A stretch of DNA of 33,305 nt from an uncultured Rhodospirillaceae bacterium. GTDB taxonomy: Bacteria > Pseudomonadota > Alphaproteobacteria > UBA8366. The notes under the pieces are model-generated. The model made no database searches and was not told the DNA's origin. It worked only from the letters and a program-made list of their open reading frames with translations. The DNA is taken from the NCBI GenBank assembly GCA_913043025.1, contig CAJWLM010000027.1, forward strand, positions 1 to 33,305, read 5' to 3'. The first letter of the stretch is position 1. Each line of letters begins with the position of its first letter. The position numbers and the translations under genes were made by a program. Below, piece after piece: positions 6,668-33,014 of this stretch.

Positions 6668-6734
6668 TCCGCCATACCCTTTGTTGAGGCCTTATCCAGG
6701 CTATGGGTGTTTCCCTAACATCAAATTGATTTGC

Positions 6735-10088: not shown

Positions 10089-10646
10089 ATGGTGTCTGCC
10101 TTATACATAATCAACCCAATGACATATAGTTATCCAAGGTTACAGAAGAGAAATAATTATATTTTCTCTATAATAAAAATAAACAAAATGTGTACTACAT
10201 TGTTTAAAAATAATTCTTGCGAAGTGCCAGAGTTTTCCACGTATTGCGATGAGGGTGGTTTTGCAATGAGTGAAACAGATGCTACTATGCCAGTGAATTC
10301 GATATGGCTTTGTTACCCTGGAAATAAAAATATTGGAGGAAACCCTTTATACCATGAAATGGCGCATTTGCTGCAGCAGATTATCTTTGAAAGTACAAGT
10401 GACCACCAATTTTATCAAACACTTCCTGATCTAGTTGATCAGGCATATGAAAGGCAAATTGTTTCACGTTATTTTCCAGCGGGTGAAGTTTGGGCCGTTG
10501 CGGTGGAAGGATACATGATGGATGGTGGTGTTGATTATAAATCTTCTTACTCCAGCCTCCAAATGATCAAAAATGAACACCCTGAAATGTATGATCTGAC
10601 AACTAGATATTTTCCAACATCACCTGCAGATTATTGGCAATTTTGA
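10089..10646 (+). CDS. zinc metallopeptidase-like protein, possibly N-terminally truncated
   Basis: An open frame of 185 codons. It contains a zincin motif HEMAH (His89, Glu90, His93). A downstream acidic segment, GEVWAVAVEGYM, holds Glu133 and Glu140, either of which could be the third zinc ligand of a gluzincin. Four cysteines (residues 35, 44, 53, 75) precede the motif, which fits an exported protein, yet no signal peptide is visible and the frame is closed by a stop just upstream. So the 5' part of the gene may be lost. An internal ATG at 10266 with GAGGGTGG seven bases upstream would give a 126-residue product still containing HEMAH. Not assigned to a named family. It lies beside the repeat copy at 10816. 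Confidence 0.5.
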   Translation: MVSALYIINPMTYSYPRLQKRNNYIFSIIKINKMCTTLFKNNSCEVPEFSTYCDEGGFAMSETDATMPVNSIWLCYPGNKNIGGNPLYHEMAHLLQQIIFESTSDHQFYQTLPDLVDQAYERQIVSRYFPAGEVWAVAVEGYMMDGGVDYKSSYSSLQMIKNEHPEMYDLTTRYFPTSPADYWQF

Positions 10647-11571: not shown

Positions 11572-12024
11572 TCAAAGAAGCTTATTCAAGCTTTCCAAGG
11601 CTTCGTGGATCAACGCCGCCTTTTCGGGGCCTAATTGTTCCACCACTGTAGCATTTTGGTGAATGGCTGGTTGGCGGACGTTTTGAACAAGATCTAAGCC
11701 CATATTGGTAAGAACCAATGTAACCTGCCTTTGATCTTCACGGCTGATTTGGCGTTGAACAAGCCCGTCTGCTACCATTCGATCAACCATTTTTGTCAGT
11801 GCTGGTGGATTCATTAGTACTACTTTAGCCAGATCGCTCATGGTTAGGCTGTCGGTTTGATCCAAAGTTTCCAATACCCGCCAAGTCTCAACTTGAATTC
11901 CAAAAGAGTTTAGCTGTTTGTTCAAGTTCACGTGCAATTTTCGATGTGTTGAAGCCACCGCATACGAAAAATACTTGTCTAGTGGTAATGGGCTAGCCGT
12001 CATTATATTGTTCCAAAGTTCCAA
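11572..12024 (-). CDS. MarR-family transcriptional regulator
   Basis: A winged-helix regulator of about 143-150 residues. Starts are TTG at 12024 (AAGGTG four bases upstream) or ATG at 12003. The recognition helix region is SLTMSDLAKVVLMNPPALTK at about residues 56-75, followed by the wing (GLVQRQISREDQRQVTLVLT), both typical of MarR. It is divergent from the amide operon with only 76 bases between the genes. It therefore very likely represses both itself and the operon and is released by a small ligand such as an amide-derived carboxylate. MarR proteins often sense aromatic or fatty acids; the ligand here is inferred. Confidence 0.85.
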   Translation of the reverse strand: MELWNNIMTASPLPLDKYFSYAVASTHRKLHVNLNKQLNSFGIQVETWRVLETLDQTDSLTMSDLAKVVLMNPPALTKMVDRMVADGLVQRQISREDQRQVTLVLTNMGLDLVQNVRQPAIHQNATVVEQLGPEKAALIHEALESLNKLL

Positions 12025-12100: not shown

Positions 12101-13249
12101 ATGCAAGTATCGAATTGGAAATATTCCTCTGTTGGGGTGCCGCACACTATTGCCTCACCTTTCGACGAGCGGTTGTTAAGCCCATCAAAAGCATTTCGCA
12201 TTGCACTGCTGATACCTATGTGTGGCTCTGCAGGGCTCTGGGCGCCTTCGTGTATCGCCTGTGCTCAGGTTGCCATCGAGGAATTAAACAAAGCCGATGG
12301 TATTGCAGGACGACAAGTGCAATTGATAATGGTCGATACTGCAATCGAGACCAATGCACCCGTTGAAGAGCTAATAAACTCGCTTATTGAAACGGAATCG
12401 GTGGATGCAATTGTGGGCATGCATATTAGTTCAATGCGTCAGAGACTAAGCAAAGTTGTGCAGGGCCGCATTCCATATATTTATACTCCTCTTTATGAAG
12501 GTGGGGAAAACGGCAAGGGAATATTTGCAATCGGCGAAACACCGGCTCAGCAACTGGGCCCTGCGATGGATCATTTGCAAGCAATTTACCGACCAAAAAA
12601 ATGGGCTCTCATTGGAAATGACTACGTTTGGCCACGATCTTCAAATGCCTACGCGAAAACGAAAATTGCAGCGCTTGGGTCAAAATTAAGCTATGAAAAA
12701 TATTTACCGTTTGGTCAGCCAAATTTTTATAGAGAAATTGAGGAAATTACTGCGTCCGGCAGCGAAGCCGTTTTAATCTCTTTAGTGGGGCAAGACGCTG
12801 TTGAATTCAATCGTAATTTTGGGGCGCTAAATGCGCATGAAGCTATGATCAGATTGTCCTGCGCAATTGAGGAAAATGCGCTATTGGCCAGTGGATCTGA
12901 CGGGCTGAAGCGTTTGTTTTCTTCGTCTTCTTATTTTGCGTCTCTTCAGTCTGAGCAAAATGCTGCATTCAAAGAAAAATATTATACATTGCATGGTGAC
13001 CGAGCCCCAATGCTAAATGCTTTGGGTCAATCAACATATGAAGGCATCCAGTTTTTGAAAGAATTGATTCAAACGCATGGAGAGGGCTGGGCGGATTTTG
13101 GAATGCCACGTCGCGCACCGCTGATTTATAAAAGTGTACGCAACGCAAAATTTATTTCAAACGACCAAAAGTCATCTCCGATCTATTTGGCTAGAGCAGA
13201 TGGTGTTATGTATAGTGTTGATAAAAAATTAATAAAAACAATAGATTAA
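12101..13249 (+). CDS. AmiC-like amide-binding protein without signal peptide
   Basis: A 382-residue periplasmic-binding-protein-fold (type 5, UrtA/FmdD/AmiC group) protein. AAGGAG lies 12 bases before the ATG. There is no hydrophobic leader: the ligand-binding fold starts near residue 31 (FRIALLIPMCGSAG), so the protein should stay in the cytoplasm. It parallels Pseudomonas AmiC, a cytoplasmic amide sensor. It shares signature stretches with the exported binding protein at 14994 (YEGG then TPAQQ with the same spacing), so the two look like paralogues. Likely role: intracellular sensing of the imported amide or control of a partner; transport is less likely without export. No antiterminator AmiR homologue is visible nearby. 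Confidence 0.72.
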   Translation: MQVSNWKYSSVGVPHTIASPFDERLLSPSKAFRIALLIPMCGSAGLWAPSCIACAQVAIEELNKADGIAGRQVQLIMVDTAIETNAPVEELINSLIETESVDAIVGMHISSMRQRLSKVVQGRIPYIYTPLYEGGENGKGIFAIGETPAQQLGPAMDHLQAIYRPKKWALIGNDYVWPRSSNAYAKTKIAALGSKLSYEKYLPFGQPNFYREIEEITASGSEAVLISLVGQDAVEFNRNFGALNAHEAMIRLSCAIEENALLASGSDGLKRLFSSSSYFASLQSEQNAAFKEKYYTLHGDRAPMLNALGQSTYEGIQFLKELIQTHGEGWADFGMPRRAPLIYKSVRNAKFISNDQKSSPIYLARADGVMYSVDKKLIKTID

Positions 13250-13375
13250 AATTTTTAATTGAAAAAGAAACTAAATACTTGAAATGGAAAGTAAAGTAAT
13301 CCAAAGTCGACCTTAGACAGATTCGAGGTCCTTAGAGCACTAGTGTGCCCTCGCAATCCAAGGGAGGTCGCGCTG

Positions 13376-14983
13376 ATGCTGATTGTTAATCTGGCTGTTG
13401 CTTTAGCTGTTTTTTTGGTCGGAATTTGGTTTTTTCAACGGTACTTTGCGAAAGCCACTCGGGACATGGCGCTTGTGCGGACCGGTTTTGGTGGACAGAA
13501 GGTTGTGTTAGATGGCGGCTGTCTTGCTCTTCCAATTTTGCATCAAATACAAAAAGTGTCGATGGGTGCTATTACGCTTCGCATTGAGCGCAAAGGAACT
13601 GCGTCACTTCTGACAGATGATCGGCTTAGGGCTGATGTCGATATGTCTTTTGAGTTCCGCGTGGCGCCGTCAAAAACATCTGTAGCGCTGGCGGCACAGT
13701 CGCTTGGTGGACGCATCTCGCGCTCTGGTGCGGATATTGAAGAATTACTGTTTGGAACAGTTTTAAATGCCATTCAGAATGCGGCGGCCATTCGCCAACT
13801 AACAGAAATTCACACTGACAGAGCCGCTTTTACTGAAGAGGTGTCACAAGCTATTTCAGAGCAGGCAAACAAATTTGGCCTCGAACTCATTTCCGGTGCG
13901 TTGCTGTCTACGGATCAGAGTGATTTAAGCCAGCTAAATGAGCAAAATATCTTTAATGCCGAAGGTATGCGAAGGGCAGCGCAATTGGTTTCGGATCAGC
14001 GAAAAGAGCGCGTACTAATCGAAACAGAGGCTGAAATCTCTGTTCGTGAAAGCAAGCTGGTCGAGGTCCAGCGGCGTTTAGATATTGAACGATCAACGCG
14101 CGAGGCGGAAATCGCCCAAAGAGAACATCTGGTTAGATTGCAAGCAGAGTCTGAGGCTTTATCTGAGGTGCACAAGATCGAAGCTCAAAAGTCATCGGAA
14201 ACGGCTCGCATAGAGCAGCAGCAGGATATTGAATCCGCAAAGGTTAAAAATGACGAGGTGCTAAGGCGCAAAGAGATGACCGCCATTCTTGCACTTGAGG
14301 AAACTAAAATACAAAACGAAATGCAACTTGCTCAGTTGCGTGCTGAAGAGGCTAAGGTAAAGGCAAGCGAAGAATCATCACGTGCGCAGGTACTGTTGGC
14401 GGCCGAATCCGTACAAAAACAAAAAGAAAAGGCAATTGCTGAACGCGATCAAGAAATTTCCTTGCTTAAACTAGAAAAAGAGTTGGCAATCGAAAGAGCC
14501 AGAGTCAAAAATAACTCTGAGACACAAATTGCCCAGGCAACGGCCAATGCAAAGGCCGTTCAGGCAAAATCCGAAGCAGATTTAAAGCGCATGGAGGCCG
14601 AGGCCAAAGGCCGAGCCGCCCAGATCGCTGCCGAAAATGGCCTTAGTGAAGCCGTTATTGCAATGCGATTGGAGGAGCGTAAGCTGGACCGCCTCCCTGA
14701 AATTATGACTCAAATGATGAAACCGGTGGAAAAAATAGACTCGATCCGCATCAACCAAATCGCTGGTATTGGCGGGGGCGCAAATGAGTCTAACGGCGGT
14801 GTGGACGGCGCTTTTGGGGCCGCCATGGATCAAATTCTAGGAATGGCTGTACGTTTGCCCGCCATGAAGCAAATGGGCGAGGAAATTGGTGTTGACTTCG
14901 ACGCAAACCTAGCTGGCCGCACGGCGGATTATGCCAATCGCATCAAATCTAAAACAGAAACCGAAAAGAACAAAAAACCCTAG
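13376..14983 (+). CDS. flotillin-like SPFH/Band 7 membrane protein
   Basis: A 535-residue protein. I chose ATG 13376 because AGGGAGGT lies eight bases upstream; an open GTG at 13343 would add 11 residues. Residues about 2-20 form one membrane segment, followed by an SPFH domain (about 25-190). A long Ala/Glu/Lys-rich coiled coil runs from about 195 to 415 with repeated heptads (VRESKLVEVQRRLDIERSTR and similar). A C-terminal tail has Gly/Asn-rich and methionine-rich segments. Flotillin-type proteins form membrane scaffolds or microdomains. Its place between two binding-protein genes in an ABC transporter operon is unusual and suggests it organises or protects the transporter; that is inference. 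Confidence 0.8.
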   Translation: MLIVNLAVALAVFLVGIWFFQRYFAKATRDMALVRTGFGGQKVVLDGGCLALPILHQIQKVSMGAITLRIERKGTASLLTDDRLRADVDMSFEFRVAPSKTSVALAAQSLGGRISRSGADIEELLFGTVLNAIQNAAAIRQLTEIHTDRAAFTEEVSQAISEQANKFGLELISGALLSTDQSDLSQLNEQNIFNAEGMRRAAQLVSDQRKERVLIETEAEISVRESKLVEVQRRLDIERSTREAEIAQREHLVRLQAESEALSEVHKIEAQKSSETARIEQQQDIESAKVKNDEVLRRKEMTAILALEETKIQNEMQLAQLRAEEAKVKASEESSRAQVLLAAESVQKQKEKAIAERDQEISLLKLEKELAIERARVKNNSETQIAQATANAKAVQAKSEADLKRMEAEAKGRAAQIAAENGLSEAVIAMRLEERKLDRLPEIMTQMMKPVEKIDSIRINQIAGIGGGANESNGGVDGAFGAAMDQILGMAVRLPAMKQMGEEIGVDFDANLAGRTADYANRIKSKTETEKNKKP

Positions 14984-14993
14984 GGAGAAAACT

Positions 14994-16214
14994 ATGAAAC
15001 TCAACAGAAGAAAATTTTTAGCAACAACGGCTGCAGTGGCTGCCGCCGTCGCAGTCCCCAGTATTTCACTAGCTGGCGATACCATAAAGCTTGGATCGGT
15101 ATTGGACACATCTGGCGGTTTTGATGCCTATGGAAAGCCAATGAACATGGCGCTTCAGCTTGCTGTTGAAAAAATTAATGCCGATGGTGGCCTTTTGGGC
15201 AAACAGGTAGAAGTAATTGGCTACGATACGCAATCTGATATGGCCCTTTATACGCAATACGCCCAACAGCTTGTCCGACAGGATAAAGTTGATGTGGTTC
15301 ATGGTGGTATTTTGTCTGCGTCACGCGAAGCTATTCGGCAAACCATGAGAAAATCTAAAACTCTATACTTCTATAATGTTTTGTATGAGGGCGGTGTTTG
15401 CGACCGAAATATCTTTATCAACGGTGTAACGCCAGCTCAGCAGGTAGAAGCTTTGGTGCCTTATGCGATGGGTAAATCTGGCAAGAAGGTATATATTTTA
15501 GCTGCTGACTACAATTATGGTCAGATCACCGCCGAGTGGATCAAAAAGTATGTTGCTGAAAATGGTGGTGAAACTGTTGGTCTTGATTTCTTCCCGCTGG
15601 ATGTGTCTGATTTCGGCTCGACAATCGCAAAAATTCAGTCCGTTGGCCCGGATTTGGTGATCGCGCCACTGGTAGGCGCTGCGCATCTTTCATTCTTCCG
15701 TCAATGGGCGGCCTCGGGGATGAAAGATAAAATTGCACTGGCCTCCACAACAATGGGCGTCGGCAACGAACACAAGGTGCTAAATGCGGCTGAAACGGAC
15801 GGTATAATGGTTGCTTACAACTATTCTCAAGACATAGACAGCCCGGCCAATAATGCGTTTAAGGCAAATTGGGAAGCGGCCTTTGGAGATAGCAACTCTA
15901 TTCATGAAATTGCAGTTTCCAACTATCAAGGCGTTCTGACTTGGGCCGAGGGTGTTCGAGCGGCAGGAAGCCTGGATCGGGATGCGGTTATTGCTGCTCT
16001 TGAAACCGGTATTTCCATCGACGGCCCGGGGGGCAAGGTCACGGTAGACCCCAAAACCCACCATGCAGTTCTTGATGTTCATTTAATGGAAATGGAAAAT
16101 CAGGGAATGCGGGTTGTTAAAACGCTTTCCCAGCGCCAACCGATTGATACCCAAGCGGTTTGTGATTTGGCGGCCAATCCAAACGATAACACACAGTATG
16201 AAATCAAATTCTAA
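14994..16214 (+). CDS. Tat-exported amide/urea-type ABC substrate-binding protein
   Basis: A 406-residue protein starting at ATG 14994 with AGGGAG six bases upstream. The N-terminus has a twin-arginine signal (NRRKFLATTA) and an Ala-rich core, with cleavage likely near residue 27. The mature part is a Peripla_BP_5/UrtA-FmdD-type fold (DTIKLGSVLDTSGGFDAYG, then VNADGG-like and YEGGVCD segments). It should deliver an amide or urea-like ligand to the permeases encoded downstream. Export folded through Tat is less common for this family than Sec and suggests a cofactor or early folding. It is separated from the permease genes by a strong hairpin at 16244-16268. Confidence 0.85.
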   Translation: MKLNRRKFLATTAAVAAAVAVPSISLAGDTIKLGSVLDTSGGFDAYGKPMNMALQLAVEKINADGGLLGKQVEVIGYDTQSDMALYTQYAQQLVRQDKVDVVHGGILSASREAIRQTMRKSKTLYFYNVLYEGGVCDRNIFINGVTPAQQVEALVPYAMGKSGKKVYILAADYNYGQITAEWIKKYVAENGGETVGLDFFPLDVSDFGSTIAKIQSVGPDLVIAPLVGAAHLSFFRQWAASGMKDKIALASTTMGVGNEHKVLNAAETDGIMVAYNYSQDIDSPANNAFKANWEAAFGDSNSIHEIAVSNYQGVLTWAEGVRAAGSLDRDAVIAALETGISIDGPGGKVTVDPKTHHAVLDVHLMEMENQGMRVVKTLSQRQPIDTQAVCDLAANPNDNTQYEIKF

Positions 16215-16295: not shown

Positions 16296-17162
16296 ATGGA
16301 TTTTGGCTTCGTCATTCTCGTGGAAATTCTCTATGCAGTCGCTTCACTTGCCTTAATAAGCGCAGGTTTGGCGGTTGTTTTTGGGATGATGAAGGTGATT
16401 AATTTGGCGCATGGGGAATTCATGATGCTTGGAGGTTACGCCGCTATTACCTCTGCAAACATGGGCGTAAATATATTTATAGCAATGTTGATAATCGCTC
16501 CGATTGTTGTCGGGCTTATTGGATTAATTGTAGAGCGTCTGGTGATCCGCCATCTTTACGGTCGACTGGTTGATACCATGCTTGCGACTTGGGGGCTCAG
16601 CCTGTTTTTTATCGGTTGCGCGACGATGATTTTTGGGAACACGACAACCGGTATTTCAACGCCAATTCCTGGCTTTGCTGTTGGCGACTATCAAATCAAT
16701 GGCTATAATTTCTTTATAATTATCGTTTCAGTGGTTCTAATCTTGGCGATGTTGGCGGTGCTAAAAACCACACGCCTGGGGTTGATTGCGCGCGGTACAA
16801 TGCAAAATCCGGACATGGCGTCCGCTTTGGGCTATTCACCAGACCGGATATATATGGCAACATTTTTTGTGGGCTCAGCGCTTTCAGGTTTTGCCGGCGC
16901 TATTTTGGCGCCCTTGGTGGGGCTGGTTCCAACGTCGGGCGGCGCCTTTATCGCAAAAGCGTTCATTACCGTGATCGCAGGTGGCCCGGCGCTGATTTCC
17001 GGACTTTTGTCGAGTAGCGCATTGTTTGGCTTTGTCGGTCAGGTTTTTTCCTTTGTGGCCTCTCCGGTGATCGGGGACGTTGCCATGCTCATCGCGGCTG
17101 TGATTTTACTGCGCCTCTTACCGCAGGGTGTCACAGGCCGTTTTTTCAAGGGTAAGCTCTAA
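16296..17162 (+). CDS. Urt/Liv-type ABC permease, LivH/UrtB-like
   Basis: A 288-residue polytopic membrane protein of the branched-chain amino acid/urea permease family. It begins with VILVEILYAVASLALISAGL, and the family-typical KVINLAHGEFMMLGGY lies at about residues 33-48. A cytoplasmic loop with TRLGLIARGTMQNPDMASALG near residue 160 is the coupling segment that contacts the ATPases. Its TAA overlaps the next start (TAATG), so the two permeases are translationally coupled. Substrate is inferred to be an amide from the fused amidase downstream. Confidence 0.88.
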   Translation: MDFGFVILVEILYAVASLALISAGLAVVFGMMKVINLAHGEFMMLGGYAAITSANMGVNIFIAMLIIAPIVVGLIGLIVERLVIRHLYGRLVDTMLATWGLSLFFIGCATMIFGNTTTGISTPIPGFAVGDYQINGYNFFIIIVSVVLILAMLAVLKTTRLGLIARGTMQNPDMASALGYSPDRIYMATFFVGSALSGFAGAILAPLVGLVPTSGGAFIAKAFITVIAGGPALISGLLSSSALFGFVGQVFSFVASPVIGDVAMLIAAVILLRLLPQGVTGRFFKGKL

Positions 17163-18193
17163 TGCCTAAAAGCTGGCAAAAAGAAAGTGTTATTGTCATC
17201 GCGATCGCTTTGATTTTGGTTTATGCTTTGCCCTTTGCGATCAACACTTTCACCCTTTCGATTTTATTAATCTATGGGATGTTGGGGCTCAGCTTAGGAC
17301 TAATTTGGGGGTTTGGCGGCATCTTGTGCTTTGGGCAAACTGCTTTTTTTGGGCTCGGAGCTTATGCCTATGCGATTTCTGCTATCAATATTGGTGAAAG
17401 TACACTGCCTCTGATTTTTTCCATTCTAGTTCCGGCGGCATTTGCCGCCTTGATGGGCGCGATGATGTTTTATGGACGTCTGGCAGATGTTTATCTTGGC
17501 GTGATTACATTGGTGGTGACTTTAATATTGTTTAAATTCATTAATTCTACGGCGAGCCCAATTTATGTTATCGGTGAAGCACGGCTAGGAGGCTATAACG
17601 GCATTCCAGGTTTCCAAACTTTGAACATACCTGGCCGGCCTGACGACTATATTTGGGGCGACGCATTTTACTATTTTTGTTTTGCGGCTTTGGTGATTGT
17701 ATATTTGCTTGTTTCATGGCTGTTGCGGTCAAGCTTTGGCCGGATTGCCATCGGCATTCGCGAAAATGATGAACGCATGTCGTTAATGGGATATGATACT
17801 CGTGCTCGAAAAACTGTTCTTTTCGCAATAGGCGCTGCCATTGCCGGATTGGCAGGTGGTCTATTTGCGAATTGGGCCGAAATAGTCACTCCGGGCTTAT
17901 TTAGCCTAGGCCAATCAGCAGAGATAATTATTTGGTGCATCGTCGGCGGCCTTGGTACCCGCTTGGGTCCCATCATTGGTGCAGCGAGCCTTGCCTATTT
18001 GAAATTTCTGCTGGGTCAGCAATCAATGATTGACAACACATTGATCATGGGCTTGATACTTGTTTTATTTGTCTTGTTTTTGCCAAAGGGTATTGTTCCA
18101 GCAATTTCAGACCTTTGGGCTGCAAGCTTTGGCCGGCGCCGAAAGCGGCTGCGTAAATCTCGCCGTGGCACTCGGGTGATTTCCAATGGTTGA
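17162..18193 (+). CDS. Urt/Liv-type ABC permease, LivM/UrtC-like
   Basis: A 343-residue polytopic membrane protein, the second half of the permease pair. Family segments include GLSLGLIWGFGGILCFGQTAFFGLGAY-like residues near 45-70 and the coupling loop FGRIAIGIRENDERMSLMGYD near 200. The C-terminus is strongly basic (RRRKRLRKSRRG), matching the cytoplasmic side. It overlaps the upstream gene by one base and the downstream ATPase gene by eight bases, so the operon is tightly coupled here. Confidence 0.88.
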   Translation: MPKSWQKESVIVIAIALILVYALPFAINTFTLSILLIYGMLGLSLGLIWGFGGILCFGQTAFFGLGAYAYAISAINIGESTLPLIFSILVPAAFAALMGAMMFYGRLADVYLGVITLVVTLILFKFINSTASPIYVIGEARLGGYNGIPGFQTLNIPGRPDDYIWGDAFYYFCFAALVIVYLLVSWLLRSSFGRIAIGIRENDERMSLMGYDTRARKTVLFAIGAAIAGLAGGLFANWAEIVTPGLFSLGQSAEIIIWCIVGGLGTRLGPIIGAASLAYLKFLLGQQSMIDNTLIMGLILVLFVLFLPKGIVPAISDLWAASFGRRRKRLRKSRRGTRVISNG

Positions 18194-18902
18194 AGTGGCT
18201 TTAGAAACCAGAAACCTAAATATGCGTTTTGGCGGCATCTGCGCGGTAGATAACGTAGATTTCAAGCTAAACGCTGGTGATTTACGTTGTCTAATTGGCC
18301 CAAATGGCGCAGGTAAAAGCACGTTTTTTAAATGTGTTACAGGCCAGTTAGAACCAACCGGCGGTCAAGTGTTTATGCGCGACGAAGAGGTTACAGGCTG
18401 GTCACCACATGAAATCGCGTCATTAGGCGTGGGTATAAAAACCCAAGTTCCAAGTGTTTTGGACGGTCTCACGGCCTTTGAGAATATCTGGTTGGCAGCC
18501 AGGCGTTTTCTATCCGTCACAGATGCCAATAGAATGACGGATGAGGTCATATCGCGACTGTCCCTTGGTGACATAATTAATTCAGATGTAGGCCAGCTTG
18601 GCCATGGAGAGCGACAGCGTGTTGAATTAGGCATCGTGATGGCGGCGGATCCTTGGTTGATATTGCTGGATGAACCGGCAGCAGGAATGTCGGCAAAGGA
18701 TGTGGATAGCTTGACCAACATCATCCACGAGATGCTGAAATCGGCCGCTGTGATAATTGTGGAACATGATATGCAATTCATTCGGTCAATCGCCTCAACG
18801 GTGAGCGTTTTTCATCAAGGTGCCATGTTAATTGAAGATCATGTGGACCGTGTGATGGCCGATCAGACCGTGCGCAACGTTTATTTGGGAAAGAAGGCCT
18901 AG
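18186..18902 (+). CDS. ABC transporter ATPase, LivG/UrtD-like
   Basis: A 238-residue ATPase. Walker A is GPNGAGKST (residues 38-46). The signature loop is LGHGERQ rather than LSGGQ; UrtD proteins also carry a histidine variant (LSHGQ), which supports the Urt branch over amino-acid LivG. Walker B is WLILLDEPAAGM, and the switch histidine sits in IIVEHDMQFI. It would pair with the ATPase half of the next gene to power the two permeases. The stop is immediately followed by the next ATG. Confidence 0.87.
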   Translation: MVEVALETRNLNMRFGGICAVDNVDFKLNAGDLRCLIGPNGAGKSTFFKCVTGQLEPTGGQVFMRDEEVTGWSPHEIASLGVGIKTQVPSVLDGLTAFENIWLAARRFLSVTDANRMTDEVISRLSLGDIINSDVGQLGHGERQRVELGIVMAADPWLILLDEPAAGMSAKDVDSLTNIIHEMLKSAAVIIVEHDMQFIRSIASTVSVFHQGAMLIEDHVDRVMADQTVRNVYLGKKA

Positions 18903-21251
18903 ATGGAAAACGAGCGCAACATAGCTTTGAATGTAACCGGGCTTTCGGGTGGATATGGCAAAGTTCCCGTGCTTCATGGCGTAGAGTTTTCGGTGGCAGA
19001 AAACGAGATTGTTGGTGTCTTGGGGCATAACGGCATGGGGAAATCAACTCTGTTAAAATCGCTCATGGGATTTTTGCCAGCCAATACAGGCACAATGCGG
19101 TTTTTCGGTACAGAAATTAATGGATTGTCTCCAAACGAACGCGCCGGCTTGGGGCTTGGATATGTTCCGCAAGGACGCGGCATATTTCCTCAGCTTTCCG
19201 TTCTGGATAACTTGCGATTTGCCTATCAAGATTATGGTGAAGAAAGCGAAGAGCACGCCCTGCAAGTCATTTTATCCGATTTTCCACGTCTCAAACGGCT
19301 GCTGTCTCGCCAAGGGGGTGCGCTGTCTGGGGGTGAACAACAGCTTTTGGCGCTTGCTCGGTGTTTGATGGGCGCTCCAGATTTCTTGCTTTTGGACGAG
19401 CCGACAGAAGGTATTCAACCTTCAATCATCGAAGAGATGGCTGAAACTCTTGTGTCGCTTAAGAAAAAACGCGGACTATCGATTTTATTAGTCGAACAGA
19501 ATTTTGATTTCATCAAGGATCTGTCTGACAGGGTACTTGTGCTTGAGCGCGGCCGTATTTCCGGTGAATTGTCAAAAACGGAATTGGCTGATCAAGCCAA
19601 AGTAGATCAGTTCTTAGGGTTTGGAACCGCGCGGTCGACGCGCAAAAATTTACCCTCAGGCAACGCAACTATCAAAAGCTCTGCCCCTTCGAAATCAGAT
19701 CGAATTACAATCGAAATTCCTCAACGCTCGGTGATAAACATGACCATAAAACGTCCTTCCTTGGCCCAGATGCGGGCTATGGCTGAAAAATTCAATATGA
19801 GCCTGACTGATGAAGAACTGGCCGAATATAATGAAATCATGGAGCCCTATATCCAAGCCTATGATCGGCTGGATGCCACGCCTGATAACCTGCCTAGTGT
19901 TCGCTATCCTCGCGCGCCCGGGCATTTTCCTGATTTTTCGGAAAACCCCCTTAATGCTTGGTATGTCAAAACCGAGGTACGGGGCGCAATGGATGGCGCT
20001 CTCAAAGGCAAGCGGATTGCGCTTAAGGATACCATTTGCCTTGCTGGTGTTCCTATGATGAATGGGTCATCCATCATGGAGGGATACACACCCGAAATTG
20101 ATGCCACGATTGTTACCAGAATGTTGGATGAAGGCGCAACGATTGTAGGCAAAGCCCATAGTGAAAATTTTTGCTTGTCTGGCGGCTCTCATACCAATGC
20201 GAAAGGCCCCATCCATAACCCATGGAAACACGGCTATATGGCAGGTGGATCTTCTGGAGGATCTGCTGCTTTGGTTGCCGCTGGCGAAGTTGATATGGCC
20301 ATTGCCGGAGATCAGGGTGGATCTATTCGAATACCTGCGTCAAACTGCGGGGTTTATGGTATGAAACCTTCGCATGGATTAGTGCCGTACACAGGGGTTA
20401 TGCCAATTGAACAGACCATTGATCATGTCGGCCCAGTGACCAACAATGTCACCGACAATGCACTTTTGTTGGAAGTTCTGGCCGGGGAAGATGGTCTTGA
20501 TCCGCGGCAGTATAAACCACAGGTTTTTCGCTATACAGAAGCGTTGGGTCGCGGGGCACATGGTTTGCGTATCGGGATTTTGAAGGAAGGGTTTCATAGA
20601 CCTGAGAGCGAACCGGATGTAGACCAAAAAGTTCTATCCGCCGTGGAAAAGTTTCGTGACATTGGGGCAATTGTCGAAGAAGTTTCTGTGCCTGAACACC
20701 ATCTGGCAGTCGATTGCTGGACAGCAATCACTGTTGAGGGCCTGCAGGATCATATGATGAACGGAAATTCGGGGGGGTCAAATTACAAAGGCTTGTTTTT
20801 ACCGTCCCTGATGGATCATATGGCACAATGGCGAAATAGATCTGATGAGCTTACTCATTCTTTGAAAGTCTGCATGTTTCTTGGCGAGTATTTTCAAGAA
20901 CAATACCGGGGCCGCTTTTATGGAAAAGCTCAAAACTTGATGCGCAAAGTCAATGAAAAATATACTGCAGTTTTAAGCCAATATGATGTACTGCTGATGC
21001 CAACCTTACCAATGAAAGCGCAGAAAATTCCACCAGCGGATTGCTCAATAAGTCTTTATGTGCAGCGTGCCTTTGAAATGATCGGTAACACTGCCCCGTT
21101 TAATGGTGGCTTGCCGGCGATGAATGTTCCATGTGGACTGAGCGAGGGGCTGCCAATTGGCATGATGCTGGTTGGGCGGCAATATGGTGAATTAAAAATT
21201 TATCAGGCGGCTCATGCATTTGAACAAATTGGCGATTGGCGCGTAATGTAG
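18903..21251 (+). CDS. fusion: UrtE-like ABC ATPase + amidase-signature hydrolase
   Basis: A single uninterrupted 782-residue frame. Residues 1-about 240 are a complete UrtE/LivF-type ATPase: Walker A GHNGMGKST (41-49), signature LSGGEQQ (141-147), Walker B FLLLDE (161-166), and EGIQPS typical of UrtE. A polar linker (about 243-279) leads to a complete amidase-signature enzyme from Met280. The catalytic triad is visible: Lys375 (IALKDT), cis-Ser450 in GGSSGGS and nucleophile Ser474 in GGSIR, 24 residues apart as in this family. Substrate would be hydrolysed to acid and ammonia at the inner face of the transporter. An internal ATG at 19740 lacks a good ribosome binding site. The fusion could be real or could reflect a lost stop codon. 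Confidence 0.88.
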   Translation: MENERNIALNVTGLSGGYGKVPVLHGVEFSVAENEIVGVLGHNGMGKSTLLKSLMGFLPANTGTMRFFGTEINGLSPNERAGLGLGYVPQGRGIFPQLSVLDNLRFAYQDYGEESEEHALQVILSDFPRLKRLLSRQGGALSGGEQQLLALARCLMGAPDFLLLDEPTEGIQPSIIEEMAETLVSLKKKRGLSILLVEQNFDFIKDLSDRVLVLERGRISGELSKTELADQAKVDQFLGFGTARSTRKNLPSGNATIKSSAPSKSDRITIEIPQRSVINMTIKRPSLAQMRAMAEKFNMSLTDEELAEYNEIMEPYIQAYDRLDATPDNLPSVRYPRAPGHFPDFSENPLNAWYVKTEVRGAMDGALKGKRIALKDTICLAGVPMMNGSSIMEGYTPEIDATIVTRMLDEGATIVGKAHSENFCLSGGSHTNAKGPIHNPWKHGYMAGGSSGGSAALVAAGEVDMAIAGDQGGSIRIPASNCGVYGMKPSHGLVPYTGVMPIEQTIDHVGPVTNNVTDNALLLEVLAGEDGLDPRQYKPQVFRYTEALGRGAHGLRIGILKEGFHRPESEPDVDQKVLSAVEKFRDIGAIVEEVSVPEHHLAVDCWTAITVEGLQDHMMNGNSGGSNYKGLFLPSLMDHMAQWRNRSDELTHSLKVCMFLGEYFQEQYRGRFYGKAQNLMRKVNEKYTAVLSQYDVLLMPTLPMKAQKIPPADCSISLYVQRAFEMIGNTAPFNGGLPAMNVPCGLSEGLPIGMMLVGRQYGELKIYQAAHAFEQIGDWRVM

Positions 21252-21266: not shown

Positions 21267-23030
21267 GTGTCTATTCTAAACGAAAGTCTGGCCCCAAGTT
21301 TGGCACAGCCGTTTTCCGAACAAAAAAGACAAAATGAAACATCCCAAAGCGTGCCGCAAGATGGGACCTCTTATCTTTCAGGGGATACAAACCAACCTCT
21401 TCATTTTAAAACAATTCCCCAGATGTTGCGCGAAACTATTTCGCGGCATGGGCCGAGGGATGCTGCAGTTTTCCCTGATCAAAATAGGCGGTTGACATAT
21501 TATGATTTTGATCGAGAAATTGATGCTCTGGCTACAGGTCTTTTGGCGCTTGGTCTAGACAAAGGGGATCGGGTTGGTATTTGGTCGCCCAATCGATACG
21601 AATGGGTTTTAACCCAGTTTGCAACGGCCCGTATTGGCTTGATTTTGGTCAATATTAACCCCGCCTATCGTTTGTCCGAGCTTGAATACGCGCTTAACAA
21701 GGTTCAATGCAAAGCTCTTGTTTTGGCTGAAAGCTTTAAAAATTCCCATTATCTGGAAATGCTTCAAGATTTGGCCCCCGAACTTGCACACTGTGAACCC
21801 GGTCGGCTTAATGCTTCTAAACTGCCTTCTCTAAAGATTGTAGTTTCGATGAGCGAAACGCCTCAAAGTGGGATGTTAAGCTTTCAGCAAGTCACGCAGC
21901 TTGGCGGGCCGGCTCAGCAGCTTCGCTTAGAGGCGATAACAGGCACCTTAAATCCAGATGACCCCATAAACATCCAATTTACATCCGGGACAACCGGGTC
22001 CCCAAAGGGCGCAACGCTTAGTCACTACAATATTATAAACAATGCTCGCTTTGTAACGGACCGTATAAACTTAACAGAGATGGATAGCCTATGCATTCCG
22101 GTTCCACTTTACCATTGTTTTGGAATGGTTATGGGGGCACTGGGATGTGTTAGCAAAGGCGCAACGATGGTCTTTCCTGGCCAAGGTTTCGATCCCGAAG
22201 AAACACTAAGAACACTTCAATCAGAGCGGTGCACAGCGCTTTACGGTGTTCCAACAATGTTTGTTGCGATGCTCCAAAAAATGGAAAGTCAATCTTTTGA
22301 TTTAACCTCACTGCGAACTGGAATTATGGCCGGTGCCCCTTGCCCAATAGATATCATGGAGCGGGTTATCAGTGAAATGAATATGACCGAAGTCACTATT
22401 TGTTACGGGATGACCGAGACTTCGCCTGTGTCATTCCAAAGCTTTGTGGATGACCCCGTTGAAAAAAGATGCAGTACAGTGGGGCGTATTCACCCCCATT
22501 TAGAGGTGAAAATTATTGATGAAGACAGCAAGATCGTTCCGGTCGGAACCAGCGGACAGCTTTGTACGCGTGGCTATTCTGTGATGAAAGGCTATTGGGG
22601 CGACGAAGAAAAAACACACGACTGCATTGTTGATGGGTGGATGTTAACCGGTGATCTTGCAGTGATCGATAGTGAAGGCTTTTGCGATATCGTTGGCCGG
22701 GTTAAGGATATGATCATAAGAGGCGGTGAAAATATTTACCCACGAGAGGTTGAAGATTTTCTGTTTCGCCATCCAGATATTTCGGAAGTTCAGGTTTTTG
22801 GCATACCAGATGAAAAATTTGGAGAAGAGGTTTGCGCTTGGGTTGTCGCGTCGCCAAATAAAGAAATATCAGCAGAAGCGGTGCGTTCTTTTTGTGAAGG
22901 TCAAATTGCACATTTTAAAATCCCTAAGCACATCGCGATAGTCGAAGAATTACCAATGACCATTACTGGCAAGCCACAAAAGTTTGTGATGCGTGATAGA
23001 ATGATAGAGTTCCTGGAGAATACTAAATGA
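21267..23030 (+). CDS. acyl-CoA synthetase, AMP-forming
   Basis: A 587-residue adenylating enzyme with a GTG start and AGGGAG seven bases upstream. Motifs in order: P-loop-like FTSGTTGSPKGATLSH (about 238-253), CYGMTETSPVSF near 380, GWMLTGDLAVIDSEGF near 455, GRVKDMIIRGGENIYPREVE near 477, and the catalytic lysine region TGKPQKF near 567. It resembles the medium-chain/FadD-type AMP-binding group. It is 15 bases after the amidase fusion gene. The likely job is to convert the carboxylic acid freed by the amidase into its CoA thioester, pulling the reaction forward and feeding beta-oxidation. Chain length or aromatic specificity cannot be read from the sequence. Confidence 0.88.
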   Translation: MSILNESLAPSLAQPFSEQKRQNETSQSVPQDGTSYLSGDTNQPLHFKTIPQMLRETISRHGPRDAAVFPDQNRRLTYYDFDREIDALATGLLALGLDKGDRVGIWSPNRYEWVLTQFATARIGLILVNINPAYRLSELEYALNKVQCKALVLAESFKNSHYLEMLQDLAPELAHCEPGRLNASKLPSLKIVVSMSETPQSGMLSFQQVTQLGGPAQQLRLEAITGTLNPDDPINIQFTSGTTGSPKGATLSHYNIINNARFVTDRINLTEMDSLCIPVPLYHCFGMVMGALGCVSKGATMVFPGQGFDPEETLRTLQSERCTALYGVPTMFVAMLQKMESQSFDLTSLRTGIMAGAPCPIDIMERVISEMNMTEVTICYGMTETSPVSFQSFVDDPVEKRCSTVGRIHPHLEVKIIDEDSKIVPVGTSGQLCTRGYSVMKGYWGDEEKTHDCIVDGWMLTGDLAVIDSEGFCDIVGRVKDMIIRGGENIYPREVEDFLFRHPDISEVQVFGIPDEKFGEEVCAWVVASPNKEISAEAVRSFCEGQIAHFKIPKHIAIVEELPMTITGKPQKFVMRDRMIEFLENTK

Positions 23031-24322: not shown

Positions 24323-24711
24323 GGCGCCCTTCCAACTGCAAGACTAAGCAAAGCAAACTCTGAATTGATTTACTTTATAATAACCAAGTTTATCTCTGAA
24401 GCAATCTCGGCGATTTTGGCAGATAGTACCATTTTGGAGAATGAAAAAAGATCTAAACTTAATCGGTCTTTTGGGATTGGGGATAAAGAAGAAACTGTTC
24501 GAAAGAACAATGAGCATTGGTCGCCTAATTTTATCCTTGATGTAGTCGATTGAGTGCGTTCCTTGGCTCCCGAATCTATAACTGTAAGCCAGATTTAGAT
24601 ATTTAACTGTCAACCGCTCTATGCAAAACTCTCGATATTGCTTGAAGTCCGGCTCTGTTTGGTTTGTTGGGGTGCATCAAACCCCTTTTTTGGGGAACAA
24701 CAAATGTAAAT
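24323..24711. other. intergenic region upstream of the isomerase and transposase remnant
   Basis: About 390 bases with no credible gene. A hairpin GGGGT / ACCCC (24669-24685) followed by six T (24686-24691) on the plus strand looks like a weak rho-independent terminator, though the stem is only 5 bp and nothing upstream on that strand needs it. Confidence 0.3.
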
Positions 24712-25000
24712 GGTTGAGCGAAGAGTTCAAAGATAAAACGACGGCCATCAACCAGATTTGGCAAACAGACTTCACCTATTTCAAGATCATTGGTTGGGGT
24801 TGCTACTATTTGGCAACAATCTTGGACGATTACAGCCGTTACATTATTGCATGGAAGCTATGCACGACCATGCGAGCCAGTGATGTGACCGAGACGATTG
24901 AATTGGCATTGGCGGCATCAGGCTGCGATTATGCCCTAGTGTAAAACAGGCCACGCGTGCTTAGTGGTAACGGATCATGCTACATATCTGGTGTCTGGAC
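24712..25000 (+). pseudogene. IS3-family transposase (OrfB) remnant, inactivated
   Basis: The frame carries the conserved IS3 OrfB core: FKDKTTAINQIWQTDFTYF, with the first catalytic Asp at 24768, then LATILDDYSRYIIAWKL. A TAA at 24942-24944 interrupts it. In the same frame after the stop, similarity continues as RPRVLSGNGSCYISG, where the family has LLSDNGSSYISG. So the second catalytic Asp is now Gly (24966-24968). The N-terminal part, the last catalytic Glu region and the inverted repeats are absent. It is an old dead insertion between the isomerase and the NusG-like gene. Confidence 0.85.
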
Positions 25001-25060: not shown

Positions 25061-25564
25061 CTAATCTGAAAGCTGTAAAAAATCAGCTGTGACATGTACC
25101 CGCGTACGCTGACCCATGCACTCCATCAGTATCCAAATGCGCTGGTTCGAATCTATGGTATCTACCTTGGCAACAAAATTTGCAAAGGGTCCGGTGAGAA
25201 GTTTAACCTGATTGCCAGGGGCGAGTCGTCTTGAAGGGAGCAGCTTGCCGGCAACATCACACCGCCGCATTAGGCCGGCGATAAGATCAAGTGGTACAGG
25301 CTTTGGTTTTCCATCGAAGCTTACAAGTTTGGAGACGCCAAACGTACCGTTTATTTTGCGCCATGGGGCTGTTTGAGGGTCAAAGGCAACAAACATATAG
25401 CCTGGAAACAAGGGGCGAAGGTCACTTACAAAGCGCGTTGATTTGCGCCTAGTCACTTCTTGCATCGGTAAGAAGGTCTCAAAATTCTGGCGCAATAGAT
25501 TTCGCTCTGCCAAACGGTGCGAGTTTGGTTTGAATTGCAATAGGAACCAAATTTTTTCTGACAT
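25061..25564 (-). CDS. NusG/RfaH-family transcription antiterminator
   Basis: A 167-residue protein with a NusG N-terminal domain (IWFLLQFKPNSHRLAERNL, then LRPLFPGYMFVAFD near 50-62) and a C-terminal KOW-like segment (LAPGNQVKLLTGPFANFVAKV near 115-135). The FPGYMF signature is typical. It is more like the specialised RfaH/LoaP-type paralogues than housekeeping NusG, since it stands without secE or ribosomal genes and beside a polysaccharide cluster. It probably lets RNA polymerase read long EPS operons. It is transcribed away from that cluster, so it would act in trans. Confidence 0.82.
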   Translation of the reverse strand: MSEKIWFLLQFKPNSHRLAERNLLRQNFETFLPMQEVTRRKSTRFVSDLRPLFPGYMFVAFDPQTAPWRKINGTFGVSKLVSFDGKPKPVPLDLIAGLMRRCDVAGKLLPSRRLAPGNQVKLLTGPFANFVAKVDTIDSNQRIWILMECMGQRTRVHVTADFLQLSD

Positions 25565-27720: not shown

Positions 27721-27727
27721 TTTAGTG

Positions 27728-28717
27728 ATGGCAAAAAAAATCACAGTAATTGGTGGGGCTGGGTTTGTTGGAACAAACCTGTGCCGTCAGCTAGCTTTGA
27801 AGCAGCAGGATTTTGAGATCGTTGACCTGAAGATGAGCAAACAATTTCCTGATAAGTGCAAGATTGCTGACGTGCAAGATGCAGATACATTGCGGGAAAT
27901 GATCACAGGCGATGTTGTTGTGAACTTGGCGGCGGTGCATCGCGACGATGTGCAGGACAAGTCTGAATATCAGAGAACCAATGTGGATGGTGCGGAAAAC
28001 GTGGCGTTGGTTTGTGACGAAAAAGGCATCGATAAGATTGTCTTCACGAGTACGGTCGCAGTCTATGGATTTTCGGAGCCTGGAACGGATGAAAGTGGTG
28101 CAATCAATCCGTTTAATGAATATGGCCGCACCAAATTTGAAGCCGAAGAAAAATTACGAGCCTGGCATGCTAAAGGGGATAAGTCACTGATCATTGTGCG
28201 CCCTACCGTGATTTTTGGTGAAGGCAACCGTGGAAATATGTTTAACTTGCTAAACCAAATTGCTTCAGGAAAATTTTTGATGGTTGGTAGAGGCGAGAAC
28301 AAAAAGTCGATAGCGTACATTGGTAATGTCGTCGCCTTCCTGGAGACTTGCGTTGCAACAGATCAAAAATATGGTATCTACAATTATGTTGATACGCCTG
28401 ACTTAAGTATGAACGAACTGGTTTCGCAGGTTAGGGCTCTATTAAAGGGTAAATATGGTGTGGGCCTGCGTTTGCCTTATTGGTTAGGAATAATTTTAGG
28501 CTATACTGCTGATTTAGTATCGTTTTTAACCCGAAAAAATTTGCCAGTTAGTTCAATACGCGTAAGGAAATTTGTCTCTTCAACGGAATTTAAAAGTACG
28601 AAAAGTTCTTTGAATGATTTCGAAGCACCATATAAATTGAGTGAGGGTATCAATCGCACATTAGAGAGTGAATTTATTTCACCACAACCGTCACGCGAAA
28701 TCTTTTACACTGAGTAA
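27728..28717 (+). CDS. NAD-dependent nucleotide-sugar epimerase/dehydratase
   Basis: A 329-residue extended short-chain dehydrogenase. The NAD-binding motif is GGAGFVG (about residues 8-14). The catalytic YxxxK is Tyr132-Lys136 (YGRTK), preceded by the STVAVYG serine/threonine region. Such enzymes epimerise or dehydrate UDP- or dTDP-sugars for surface polysaccharide. ATG 27728 is preferred over the adjacent GTG 27725. The C-terminal third (GLRLPYWLGIILGYTADLV) is hydrophobic, as in several polysaccharide-cluster epimerases. The exact sugar cannot be read. It starts the biosynthetic part of the cluster. Confidence 0.85.
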   Translation: MAKKITVIGGAGFVGTNLCRQLALKQQDFEIVDLKMSKQFPDKCKIADVQDADTLREMITGDVVVNLAAVHRDDVQDKSEYQRTNVDGAENVALVCDEKGIDKIVFTSTVAVYGFSEPGTDESGAINPFNEYGRTKFEAEEKLRAWHAKGDKSLIIVRPTVIFGEGNRGNMFNLLNQIASGKFLMVGRGENKKSIAYIGNVVAFLETCVATDQKYGIYNYVDTPDLSMNELVSQVRALLKGKYGVGLRLPYWLGIILGYTADLVSFLTRKNLPVSSIRVRKFVSSTEFKSTKSSLNDFEAPYKLSEGINRTLESEFISPQPSREIFYTE

Positions 28718-28726
28718 CTCCGTAAA

Positions 28727-29491
28727 TTGTTGAAATTTAGTATAATCACTGTTTGCTATAATTCTGAGCAGACGATAGCAGAGACCATCAGTTCTGTAAA
28801 TTGTCAGTCTTTTAGAAATTATGAACATATTATTATTGATGGACTATCTACTGATACAACTCTTGATATAGTGAACTTTTCTAAAGATAAAAAAACAGTT
28901 GTTTTCTCTGAGAAAGATGAAGGTCTTTATGATGCAATGAATAAAGGTATTTTGAAAGCAAAAGGTGAATATCTTGCGTTTTTAAATTCTGATGATAGGT
29001 TTATTAATAATTATGTACTCGAGAAGGTTAATTTGATTGCCAAAAGCGACCCTGACTTCATTTATGGTGGTATTAATTATTTTTCTGAAAATGCACACAA
29101 GCAGCGAATATGGATGCCCGATAATTTCAACATCATAAAGAAAAAAAAATTACAAATTCCACATCCTTGTATTTTTATTAAACGAGATAAGCTAATCGAA
29201 AAAAATCGTTTTTTTGATACCAATTTGAAAATTGCATCAGACCTGAAGCAACAATTGGAATTCATTCACATCGATAATCGAGCAGGAGTGCTTATCAACG
29301 AAGTTTTGGTGGATATGCGCCTTGGAGGTAAAAGCACAGACGGTTTATTAGCATTCCTGACTGGTTGGAGAGAATCTGTCGTGGTCTACAAAGAGATATT
29401 TGGATTGGTCGGTTTATTTTTTTGCATCAGAAAAATTTTGTATAAATTATTACAGATCAAAAATATCGTTTACTTTGTAAAACCTAATTAA
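28727..29491 (+). CDS. glycosyltransferase family 2
   Basis: A 254-residue GT-A glycosyltransferase with a TTG start. Conserved features: SIITVCYNSEQTIAETI (nucleotide-binding N-terminus), IIIDGLSTDTT, SEKDEGLYDAMNKGI (acidic residue plus the MNKG motif of the WcaA/colanic-type subgroup) and LNSDDRF, the DxD-like metal site near residue 87. The C-terminus has a membrane-affine segment (GLVGLFFCIRKILYKLL). It would add a sugar to a lipid-linked oligosaccharide at the cytoplasmic face. Codon use is noticeably more AT-rich than in the amide operon. Confidence 0.87.
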   Translation: MLKFSIITVCYNSEQTIAETISSVNCQSFRNYEHIIIDGLSTDTTLDIVNFSKDKKTVVFSEKDEGLYDAMNKGILKAKGEYLAFLNSDDRFINNYVLEKVNLIAKSDPDFIYGGINYFSENAHKQRIWMPDNFNIIKKKKLQIPHPCIFIKRDKLIEKNRFFDTNLKIASDLKQQLEFIHIDNRAGVLINEVLVDMRLGGKSTDGLLAFLTGWRESVVVYKEIFGLVGLFFCIRKILYKLLQIKNIVYFVKPN

Positions 29492-29656
29492 TAATTATGA
29501 CCTCAAATTGAATTATCCCACATATTTCATATTCAGGAATACGGACAAAGATTTCTATTTCCGGGTTTAAATATCCTGGTTTTAGGTTTGAAGTAGTTGA
29601 GGATCGAAAAATCATTAGTTTACTTACAATAGATAGTCCTGAGCTTACATCATGCC

Positions 29657-29686
29657 TTGTCTTGGCAAAAAAATTTGTACTATGAT
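29657..29686 (+). promoter_or_regulatory. candidate promoter before the ABC flippase gene
   Basis: TTGTCT (29657-29662) and TATGAT (29681-29686) with 18 bases between, 21 bases before the likely TTG start, inside a 216-bp gap between genes. Confidence 0.3.
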
Positions 29687-29707
29687 AGATTATAGCCTTC
29701 TTATTGA

Positions 29708-31510: not shown

Positions 31511-33014
31511 AATTATTGACTTAACTCCTAATTATGGTGTGTCACTTTTCATCAAAAATGGCTTATTCAACGCTGCAACAAAGGAAGGATTTGATTTTGT
31601 AGTGTGTAGCAATCCAATCATAAGTTCAAAGGCCTCAATGAAACGTTTGTTGAAATTATATGATGTCACTGTTGTATTAGACTTTTTAAAAATGTGTGCG
31701 TTTGCACTAAAAATTCTACCAGCTTTTTTTTTAAAAACTGAACAATTTATATCCTATTTGTTACACCAAAGACTTGAAGGTGTGGTGGTTGGGGATTGTA
31801 TTCTCAGCGCCTATCAGAGAAATCTACAGACAAAAATCATTATAAGTAAAAATATTGAATTATTTTTATTCATCATGATTTCATGTCTGAAAATATTGAC
31901 GAATTTTCGTCAGACCAGAAAAAATACAGAAACGCAATCTGACACAAGATATTTTATATATTGTTTTGAAACAACTGGTACCGAGGAGGCAATCAGGCGC
32001 TTTTGCATTAGGCGGGGAGCTGCAGAACTTCGTTATTCAGGTCATCACAAAGGATTTCGATTATATTCAGGTTATGATGGTATTGCCCTAAAAAAAAATG
32101 AAAACCTAAACTTGTTGGCTCGAAAAGAATTAAAAAAATCAGACTTGGAAAAGGCTAAAACTCGATTATGTTCGTTTGTGGAACGGACATCTCAATATGA
32201 CTATTTGAAATCTGTTGATGTCGACATGAAGGTGAGGTTAGATTTTGATGAGGTGTCACCAAAATCAAGCGTTGTTTTATTTCTAGCTACTGTGAGTGAT
32301 GCCCAATATCTTTATGGTGTTGGCCCTTTCCCTACATTAGATCTCTTTCACGAAGCTATGATTAAGTTTTTCTTATCAAAAAATTACTATGTAATTGTGA
32401 AACCTCATCCAGCGATGCTGAAAAATAAAGACTACGCTGCGAAGGATAGAAAATATTATGAAATATTACTGAACAGATGGAAAGTGAATATTGAAAATAC
32501 TCACTTAATGCGGTCACGTGTTAATAATAAATTGTTATTTGTGAGTGAGCGCCTCTCAGTAAAAGAGCTCAGCCGGACGTTTTCAGAATTTCTTTGTATC
32601 ACCCAGCATGGCTCTGTAGCTGCAGAGTGTGCATACTTGGGACATTTGAGTCTCGTGGCAGAAAACTCTCAATTTTCAACAGCAGATAAATTTGTTGAAA
32701 TACTTCAAAATTTTAGCCAGCTATCACTAAAATTAGACAGATGGAAAAATTTTGAAGCGTTCAGTGACTTGGAAGAAGCTTCGATTTACGAATATATTTG
32801 TATTCATCATTTCTATAATCATCCCCTATACCAATCTGGTTATTTTTACGGATTGGTACCTGAGGATATAGATTCTTCTGAGATAGAAGTTTGGGTGAAT
32901 AATTTTATACATGAAAAAGACGATGCAATCAATATACTCAACAGAATTACAACTCAAAATATTATGCAATTAAAAAATAACTTTAGCGACTGGATTTTGC
33001 ATACAGGTGCATAA
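31494..33014 (+). CDS. capsule/surface-polysaccharide GT-B-like protein
   Basis: A 506-residue protein; ATG 31494 or 31503. I do not recognise an exact family. The C-terminal half has features of GT-B capsule transferases (KpsC/KpsS/CDP-glycerol transferase-like): VIVKPHPAML, then FLCITQHGSVAAECAYLG and a following STADKF segment, which in such enzymes form the nucleotide-sugar site. The first about 200 residues are less conserved and contain hydrophobic stretches (residues about 55-85 and 120-135). It overlaps the flippase gene, so it belongs to the same transcript. A glycosyl- or phosphotransferase role is inferred. Confidence 0.6.
   Translation: MVKMNKIIDLTPNYGVSLFIKNGLFNAATKEGFDFVVCSNPIISSKASMKRLLKLYDVTVVLDFLKMCAFALKILPAFFLKTEQFISYLLHQRLEGVVVGDCILSAYQRNLQTKIIISKNIELFLFIMISCLKILTNFRQTRKNTETQSDTRYFIYCFETTGTEEAIRRFCIRRGAAELRYSGHHKGFRLYSGYDGIALKKNENLNLLARKELKKSDLEKAKTRLCSFVERTSQYDYLKSVDVDMKVRLDFDEVSPKSSVVLFLATVSDAQYLYGVGPFPTLDLFHEAMIKFFLSKNYYVIVKPHPAMLKNKDYAAKDRKYYEILLNRWKVNIENTHLMRSRVNNKLLFVSERLSVKELSRTFSEFLCITQHGSVAAECAYLGHLSLVAENSQFSTADKFVEILQNFSQLSLKLDRWKNFEAFSDLEEASIYEYICIHHFYNHPLYQSGYFYGLVPEDIDSSEIEVWVNNFIHEKDDAINILNRITTQNIMQLKNNFSDWILHTGA

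Follow-up and report, generated by a model that had tools for sequence, protein, structure and literature searches.

A fused importer ATPase–amidase gene with a conserved internal start signal in a clade of alphaproteobacterial operons

Importers of the UrtABCDE type carry urea or short-chain amides, and an amidase or a formamidase can be encoded next to them. An example of such an arrangement is Pseudomonas veronii Yu15, in which urtABCDE is reported to lie beside amidase and formamidase genes and which grows on formamide (PMC13209695). The locus described here contains the same subunits and also holds an amidase in the operon, but urtE and the amidase are one gene, and the operon additionally encodes a flotillin and an acyl-CoA ligase. 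The amidase also differs from AmiE and FmdA, which we take to stand outside the amidase-signature family (PF01425) to which it belongs. Its nearest solved relatives are chains 3a1k/3a1i (residues 5-497 of 503, E 3.8e-136), presumably an amidase of Rhodococcus that is linked to nitrile hydratase and stands alone, not attached to a transporter. The 3a1k chain (521 residues) has no ATPase part, unlike the fused protein.

The closest precedent for a substrate-processing enzyme built into an ABC transporter is the group of PCAT exporters, in which a C39 peptidase is joined to membrane and ATPase domains. In the present case it is the ATPase of an importer that carries a C-terminal amidase, and Pfam finds neither a peptidase nor a membrane domain in the fused protein. 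A second precedent concerns the number of products of one gene. In cas8 and cas10, an internal in-frame start with a potential Shine-Dalgarno sequence gives Cas11, the C-terminal part alone, and this start was tested by altering the internal ATG (PMC11899642). The same scheme of one gene and two proteins is proposed here; it is predicted from conservation, and the short product would be an enzyme. The co-location of urtABCDE with a formamidase and the internal starts of the Cas11 type are known, whereas no description of a fused importer ATPase–amidase was recognised in a search of a literature library with limited subscription content.

The fused gene and its operon

The fused gene was found in a stretch of 33,305 nucleotides from an uncultured Rhodospirillaceae bacterium (contig CAJWLM010000027.1), here called the window. 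It occupies positions 18903-21251 (+) as a single open frame of 782 codons that begins with ATG, has no internal stop and ends with the stop included in these coordinates, which agrees with the continuous ATPase–amidase frame of the original prediction. For comparison 74 loci were gathered, 33 of which are fused; the other 41 include L026, L029 and L042, which are cut by contig ends. Three further fused loci found later bring the number to 36, in which at least one genome stands twice (as L020 and L033). L020, L033 and L106 are taken as the same genome, and L080 and L094 as the same record, in part because their sequences are identical; L021 and L110 look like near copies.

The ATPase half comprises residues 1-240 (18903-19622, +), as delimited by Pfam, NCBIfam and aligned motifs. 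Pfam ABC_tran covers residues 24-168 (104.9 bits), and the NCBIfam UrtE model TIGR03410 covers residues 9-238 with 255.3 bits, below its cut-off of 285.8. The half is therefore named UrtE-like only: the resemblance put forward in the original prediction stands over nearly the whole half, and an identity as the true urea UrtE finds no backing in the cut-off. All parts expected of a PF00005 ATPase are present, namely Walker A (41-49), the signature LSGGEQQ (141-147) and Walker B with the catalytic Glu166, and Gln199 presumably occupies the H-loop position. The Walker A sequence GHNGMGK(S/T)T, in which position 48 is S or T, the signature and the Walker B sequence LDE are otherwise invariant in 31/31 aligned fused proteins, near copies included. 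The linker that follows (residues 241-279, 39 residues; 19623-19739, +) is polar, as had been noted, and predicted to be disordered; neither its sequence nor its length is conserved.

The amidase half consists of residues 280-782 (19740-21251, +). Pfam Amidase covers residues 359-763 (305.7 bits), and the model NF005565/PRK07235 matches residues 280-781 over positions 1-505 of 506 with 761.7 bits against a curated cut-off of 545, a full-length match that places the half in the PRK07235 subfamily. Lys375, Ser450 and Ser474, which we take to be the Ser-cisSer-Lys triad of the amidase-signature family, are intact and invariant in the same 31 proteins, near copies again included, so that the motifs listed in the original prediction hold well beyond the one genome. 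Ser474 lines up with position 195 of chain 3a1k, the serine of GGSIRIP. An AlphaFold model calculated from 29 fused rows gives a good ATPase (pLDDT per ten residues 79-94, and 69 and 62 at its two ends), values of 25-38 across the linker and a poor amidase (mean 65.2), and the docking of the domains is for this reason not read from it. The poor modelling of the amidase probably results from an alignment holding fused sequences only.

The surrounding genes form an operon with a divergent MarR-family regulator (11572-12024, -). The first gene of the operon encodes a UrtA/AmiC-like protein with no visible signal peptide (12101-13249, +), a probable cytosolic amide sensor. It is followed by a flotillin/SPFH protein with a hydrophobic N-terminus (13343-14983, +; start probably the ATG at 13376) and a UrtA-like substrate-binding protein with a Tat-type signal (14931-16214, +; true start probably downstream of 14931). 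Pfam and NCBIfam then identify a UrtB-like permease (16296-17162, +), a UrtC-like permease (17162-18193, +) and a UrtD-like ATPase (18186-18902, +), and behind the fusion, together with sequence matches, an AMP-forming acyl-CoA ligase (21267-23030, +). One operon thus encodes the binding protein, two permeases and two ATPases of a UrtABCDE/HAAT-type importer. Between urtC and the ligase no second urtE was found in the fused operons, so the fused protein presumably serves as an ATPase of this transporter itself, with the UrtD-like protein as its presumed partner nucleotide-binding subunit. The flotillin, the AmiC-like protein, the MarR regulator and the ligase are, like the internal start considered below, points that the original prediction did not contain.

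The ligase comes after the fusion in 31/32 fused loci whose DNA reaches that far (L016 is cut off), following a gap of about 0.8 kb in L037 and missing in L086. The flotillin is present in 30/30 testable fused operons and in 0/19 unfused ones, the criterion being a blastp match (E 1e-8) to the flotillin of the window. One genome is represented twice in each set, L009, L023 and L024 are omitted because their DNA stops short, and in 4/19 unfused operons (L090, L102-L104) the transporter is more distant, with 30-41% identity. L118, one of the fused operons found later, contains the flotillin as well. Since the fused operons are perhaps one clade, this association can be a single event. A flotillin within a nutrient-importer operon seems unusual; a PDB search with it returned nothing at E 0.001.

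Other parts of the window hold genes of different character. On the reverse strand, positions 2127-7754 encode in a row a polyprenyl synthetase, a flavin amine-oxidase-family protein (phytoene-desaturase-like by context), a phytoene synthase, a lycopene cyclase and a beta-carotene dioxygenase (BCD). Together these are a carotenoid-to-retinal set, with which a rhodopsin elsewhere in the genome would agree. Close to the gene of a NusG-family protein (25061-25564, -) are those of a sugar epimerase, a glycosyltransferase of family 2 and an ABC exporter (27725-33014, +); NusG paralogues often antiterminate polysaccharide operons. Near the amide operon, a short frame (24621-24944, +) matches part of an rve-type integrase core (positions 4-61 of the 102 in the model) and may be a remnant of mobility; the operon is patchy among relatives and plasmid-borne in two Sulfitobacter. 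Two frames (31494-33014, +, 506 aa; 10089-10646, +, 185 aa) have no Pfam match at E 0.001, and Rfam at gathering scores finds nothing in the window.

The internal start signal

The first codon of the amidase half is an internal ATG (Met280; 19740-19742, +), and a Shine-Dalgarno-like GGTGA (19730-19734, +) is located 5 bases ahead of it. This ATG is proposed as a second start, which would give a free amidase of 503 aa. The column is invariant: the codon is ATG in 33/33 fused loci. The sequence upstream of it is mostly GGTGA, and in some distant members GGAGG or another purine-rich sequence. The analyses of pairing, information content and linker stops comprise 28/33 fused loci, near copies (at least 95%, ungapped comparison) having been removed. 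In these sequences the information content is highest at -9 (1.78 bits), -10 (1.19), -6 (1.04) and -7 (0.83), with 0.35 at -8, and reaches at most 0.80 elsewhere back to -45. The wobble base at -10 is G in 23/28 sequences. Where codon -3 encodes Val (16 sequences), GTG is used in 16/16, and codon -4 of the same sequences ends in G in 16/16 across six different amino acids.

The strength of the signal was measured as the energy of pairing with an anti-Shine-Dalgarno sequence, which may not be that of the host, as the 16S 3'-end pattern has no match in its own assembly. The 28 proposed starts average -6.24, and the 168 ATGs elsewhere inside the genes -3.26 (Mann-Whitney p 2.5e-8). Relative to synonymous-codon shuffles the mean z is -1.30 versus +0.06 (p 1e-9); both p values ignore shared descent, and singly only 5/28 sequences reach p<=0.1. 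The 33 internal starts together average -6.4, random in-gene positions -3.6 (SD 2.5), and annotated starts in three relatives -7.3, -7.2 and -6.1 (17/19, 16/17 and 15/17 listed genes used). The three fused loci found later score -6.0, -5.3 and -5.4, each with the ATG; two of them (L111, L118) are without GGTGA and the third resembles L021. A conserved candidate start codon with a Shine-Dalgarno-like sequence before it is thus present across the fused genes, with a weak signal in a few members.

Such retention of the ATG and of the Shine-Dalgarno-like site, even at the wobble base, makes it probable that both a tethered and a free amidase exist. As far as conservation can tell, one gene probably makes the full-length ATPase–amidase plus the free amidase, and after the fusion the amidase's own ribosome-binding site and ATG would have been retained under selection. 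The original prediction had set the full-length protein against separate polypeptides, and with a conserved internal start signal this is probably a false choice.

It is also conceivable, though we consider it unlikely, that the full-length fusion is the sole product, and that GGTGA–ATG either is left over from the start which the amidase had before the fusion or makes ribosomes pause, so that the ATPase half can fold before the amidase is translated. This explanation is consistent with the weak signals of L034 (-3.5), L019 (-3.8) and L022-L024 (-4.6, no better than their own synonymous shuffles), and with an average weaker than that of the starts of amidases scored as separate (-8.4; 38 loci, two contig-cut). 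In addition, Met280 lies within the conserved amidase N-terminus (MTIKRP), so that its conservation may operate at the level of the protein. However, the linker on which the signal lies varies in both sequence and length, so that a relic under no selection should have been lost as well. The G at -10 is kept across six amino acids, and the distant members L030, L035 and L038 use GGAGG at similar spacing, encoding other residues. Pausing, furthermore, has no need of an ATG at a set distance. The preferred reading remains that of two products, tethered and free.

Distribution, origin and one loss of the fusion

The scan of named genomes gave 21 loci, and in 19/19 that contain both halves these form a single open frame. 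The fused genomes include Zongyanglinia, Seohaeicola, Aquicoccus, Salinihabitans, Nitratireductor and Sneathiella. Two complete Sulfitobacter plasmids encode the fusion as a 793-aa protein annotated 'amidase'; an interpretation of these records as two genes was rejected, because the second name belongs to UrtD, whose gene overlaps the fusion by a single base. In the whole-genome samples, where scoring was limited to each genome's best candidates, the fusion occurs in 11/385 genomes of the class, 2/43 of the order, 1/11 of the family and 1/3 of the genus, the window's own genome included in each. It occurs in 5/25 genomes of the family of G305. In the phylum sample (398 genomes) the window's own genome alone carries it, and the 6 genomes with matches outside the class gave no fusion among the two best candidates scored per genome. 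The distribution is therefore patchy among genus and family genomes. The linkers of the 28 non-redundant fused sequences, the window's included, contain 0 stops in 1402 codons, where shuffling predicts 28.7 and the other two frames hold 33 and 25, which argues that the open frame is kept by selection. The fusion had been described as non-standard, and this is correct; yet, on the sequences compared, a clade of operons from alphaproteobacteria has kept it.

In the unfused relatives (Aureimonas, Tistrella, Paracoccus and others), urtA-E are followed in the same order by a separate amidase gene, in line with the statement in the original prediction that the two families are separate proteins, often of one operon. 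The amidase starts 4-373 bases past the urtE stop in 19 unfused loci. The linkers of 28 fused loci (36-67 aa) resemble the longer of these spacers in length. The fusion therefore probably began with the loss of the urtE stop, after which translation ran on through the spacer into the neighbouring amidase gene.

The trees differ in how clearly they resolve the number of such events. In the amidase tree (without L029, L031 and L076, and with L026 and L042 labelled as cut off), a single branch with SH-aLRT 93 unites every fused row with two contig-cut rows, and one change of state suffices if the contig-cut rows are left open. The short UrtE tree needs two changes and gives one origin in 24% of bootstraps. 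The UrtA-E tree, made of 31 fused and 15 unfused operons (without L024, L078, L106, L110 and L111, and L090, L094 and L102-L104), groups the fused operons with a support of 37 at the deepest split. A single fusion event is favoured but not proven, as the amidase tree speaks for it and the transporter trees are weak.

One genome, G787, sits within the fused clade of the UrtA-E tree, on the starred branch with L020 and L021. In its locus (L117 9043-11615), UrtE retains a linker stub that ends shortly past the conserved GAARSTR tail, and the ligase comes next. Within 19.5 kb, no counterpart of the fused amidase, the flotillin, the AmiC-like gene or the MarR gene was found near the operon, and a separate amidase, 57% identical, is located about 6.6 kb downstream of urtE. 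By its sequence and position, G787 is a natural loss of the amidase domain in which transporter and ligase are kept. The ATPase half can accordingly do without the amidase, and the tethering would be dispensable there.

This loss bears on the possibility that the joining is incidental. In that case a stop would have been lost, the hydrolysis would be left to amidase made separately from the internal ATG, and the ATPase-borne copy would be a passenger with no channelling benefit. G787 fits such a course, as does a linker that is long and predicted to be disordered. We judge it improbable, somewhat more so than the relic or pausing explanation, since an open linker and an intact amidase are kept across 36 fused loci as well as across two deep branches of the amidase tree, and since no simple reversion to separate genes occurs among the loci examined, the loss in G787 having removed the amidase itself. 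An assembly or sequencing artefact, in which a missed stop or frameshift joins two genes, could be suspected in an assembly of 65 contigs, but is rejected with near certainty by the same frame in independent genomes (the 19 named loci, the two complete plasmids and the 11 class genomes, own included).

Proposed role in carboxamide uptake

The nature of the substrate can be approached from the matches of the operon's proteins. For the binding protein and the sensor, the matches are urea-binding proteins and AmiC, and all five UrtA-E proteins score below the urea equivalog cut-offs, which speaks against urea as the transported substrate. Among the unfused relatives, Tistrella has nitrile hydratase genes at a distance of about 7 kb from the operon, and the Paracoccus amidase has a substrate-binding-domain gene and an ANTAR gene behind it. 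The matches of the ligase are too mixed for naming a substrate. Taken together, the matches of amidase, sensor and binding protein and the neighbours in the relatives suggest uptake, hydrolysis and CoA activation of an organic carboxamide.

According to the proposed mechanism, the UrtA-D/UrtE-type importer would bring the organic amide into the cell at the expense of ATP. The sole UrtE of the operon would carry the amidase on a flexible tether, which would place amidase at the inner membrane face with each transporter. Release of acid and ammonia at the point of entry, the vectorial trapping put forward in the original prediction, would be a putative benefit of this tether. The amide would be split into ammonia and a carboxylic acid, and the ligase would turn the acid into a CoA thioester and so prevent its escape. 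Clustering of the complex in the membrane is the probable role of the flotillin, and induction of the operon by the amide probably depends on the MarR and AmiC-like proteins. As an explanation of the whole locus, an inducible carboxamide-uptake operon with a tethered and an additional free amidase appears reasonably likely. We put forward more tentatively, as a possibility, a one-gene, two-protein transport metabolon, in which tethered and free amidase would be made in a set ratio and a dedicated flotillin would gather the complex with the ligase. A single membrane site would then serve to take up the carboxamide, hydrolyse it and trap the product with CoA.

An importer and the enzyme acting on its cargo are as a rule separate, and it is hard to test whether the two act as a unit. 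The fused clade, the unfused operon as a control and the loss in G787 together make substrate channelling at the membrane directly testable, and the same holds for any role that a bacterial flotillin may have in it. The case also points to a blind spot of annotation, as the fusion stands under the bare name 'amidase' in both annotated records examined. Should initiation take place at the internal ATG, a fused gene would remain able to supply its parts separately, which would matter for the reading of any gene fusion.
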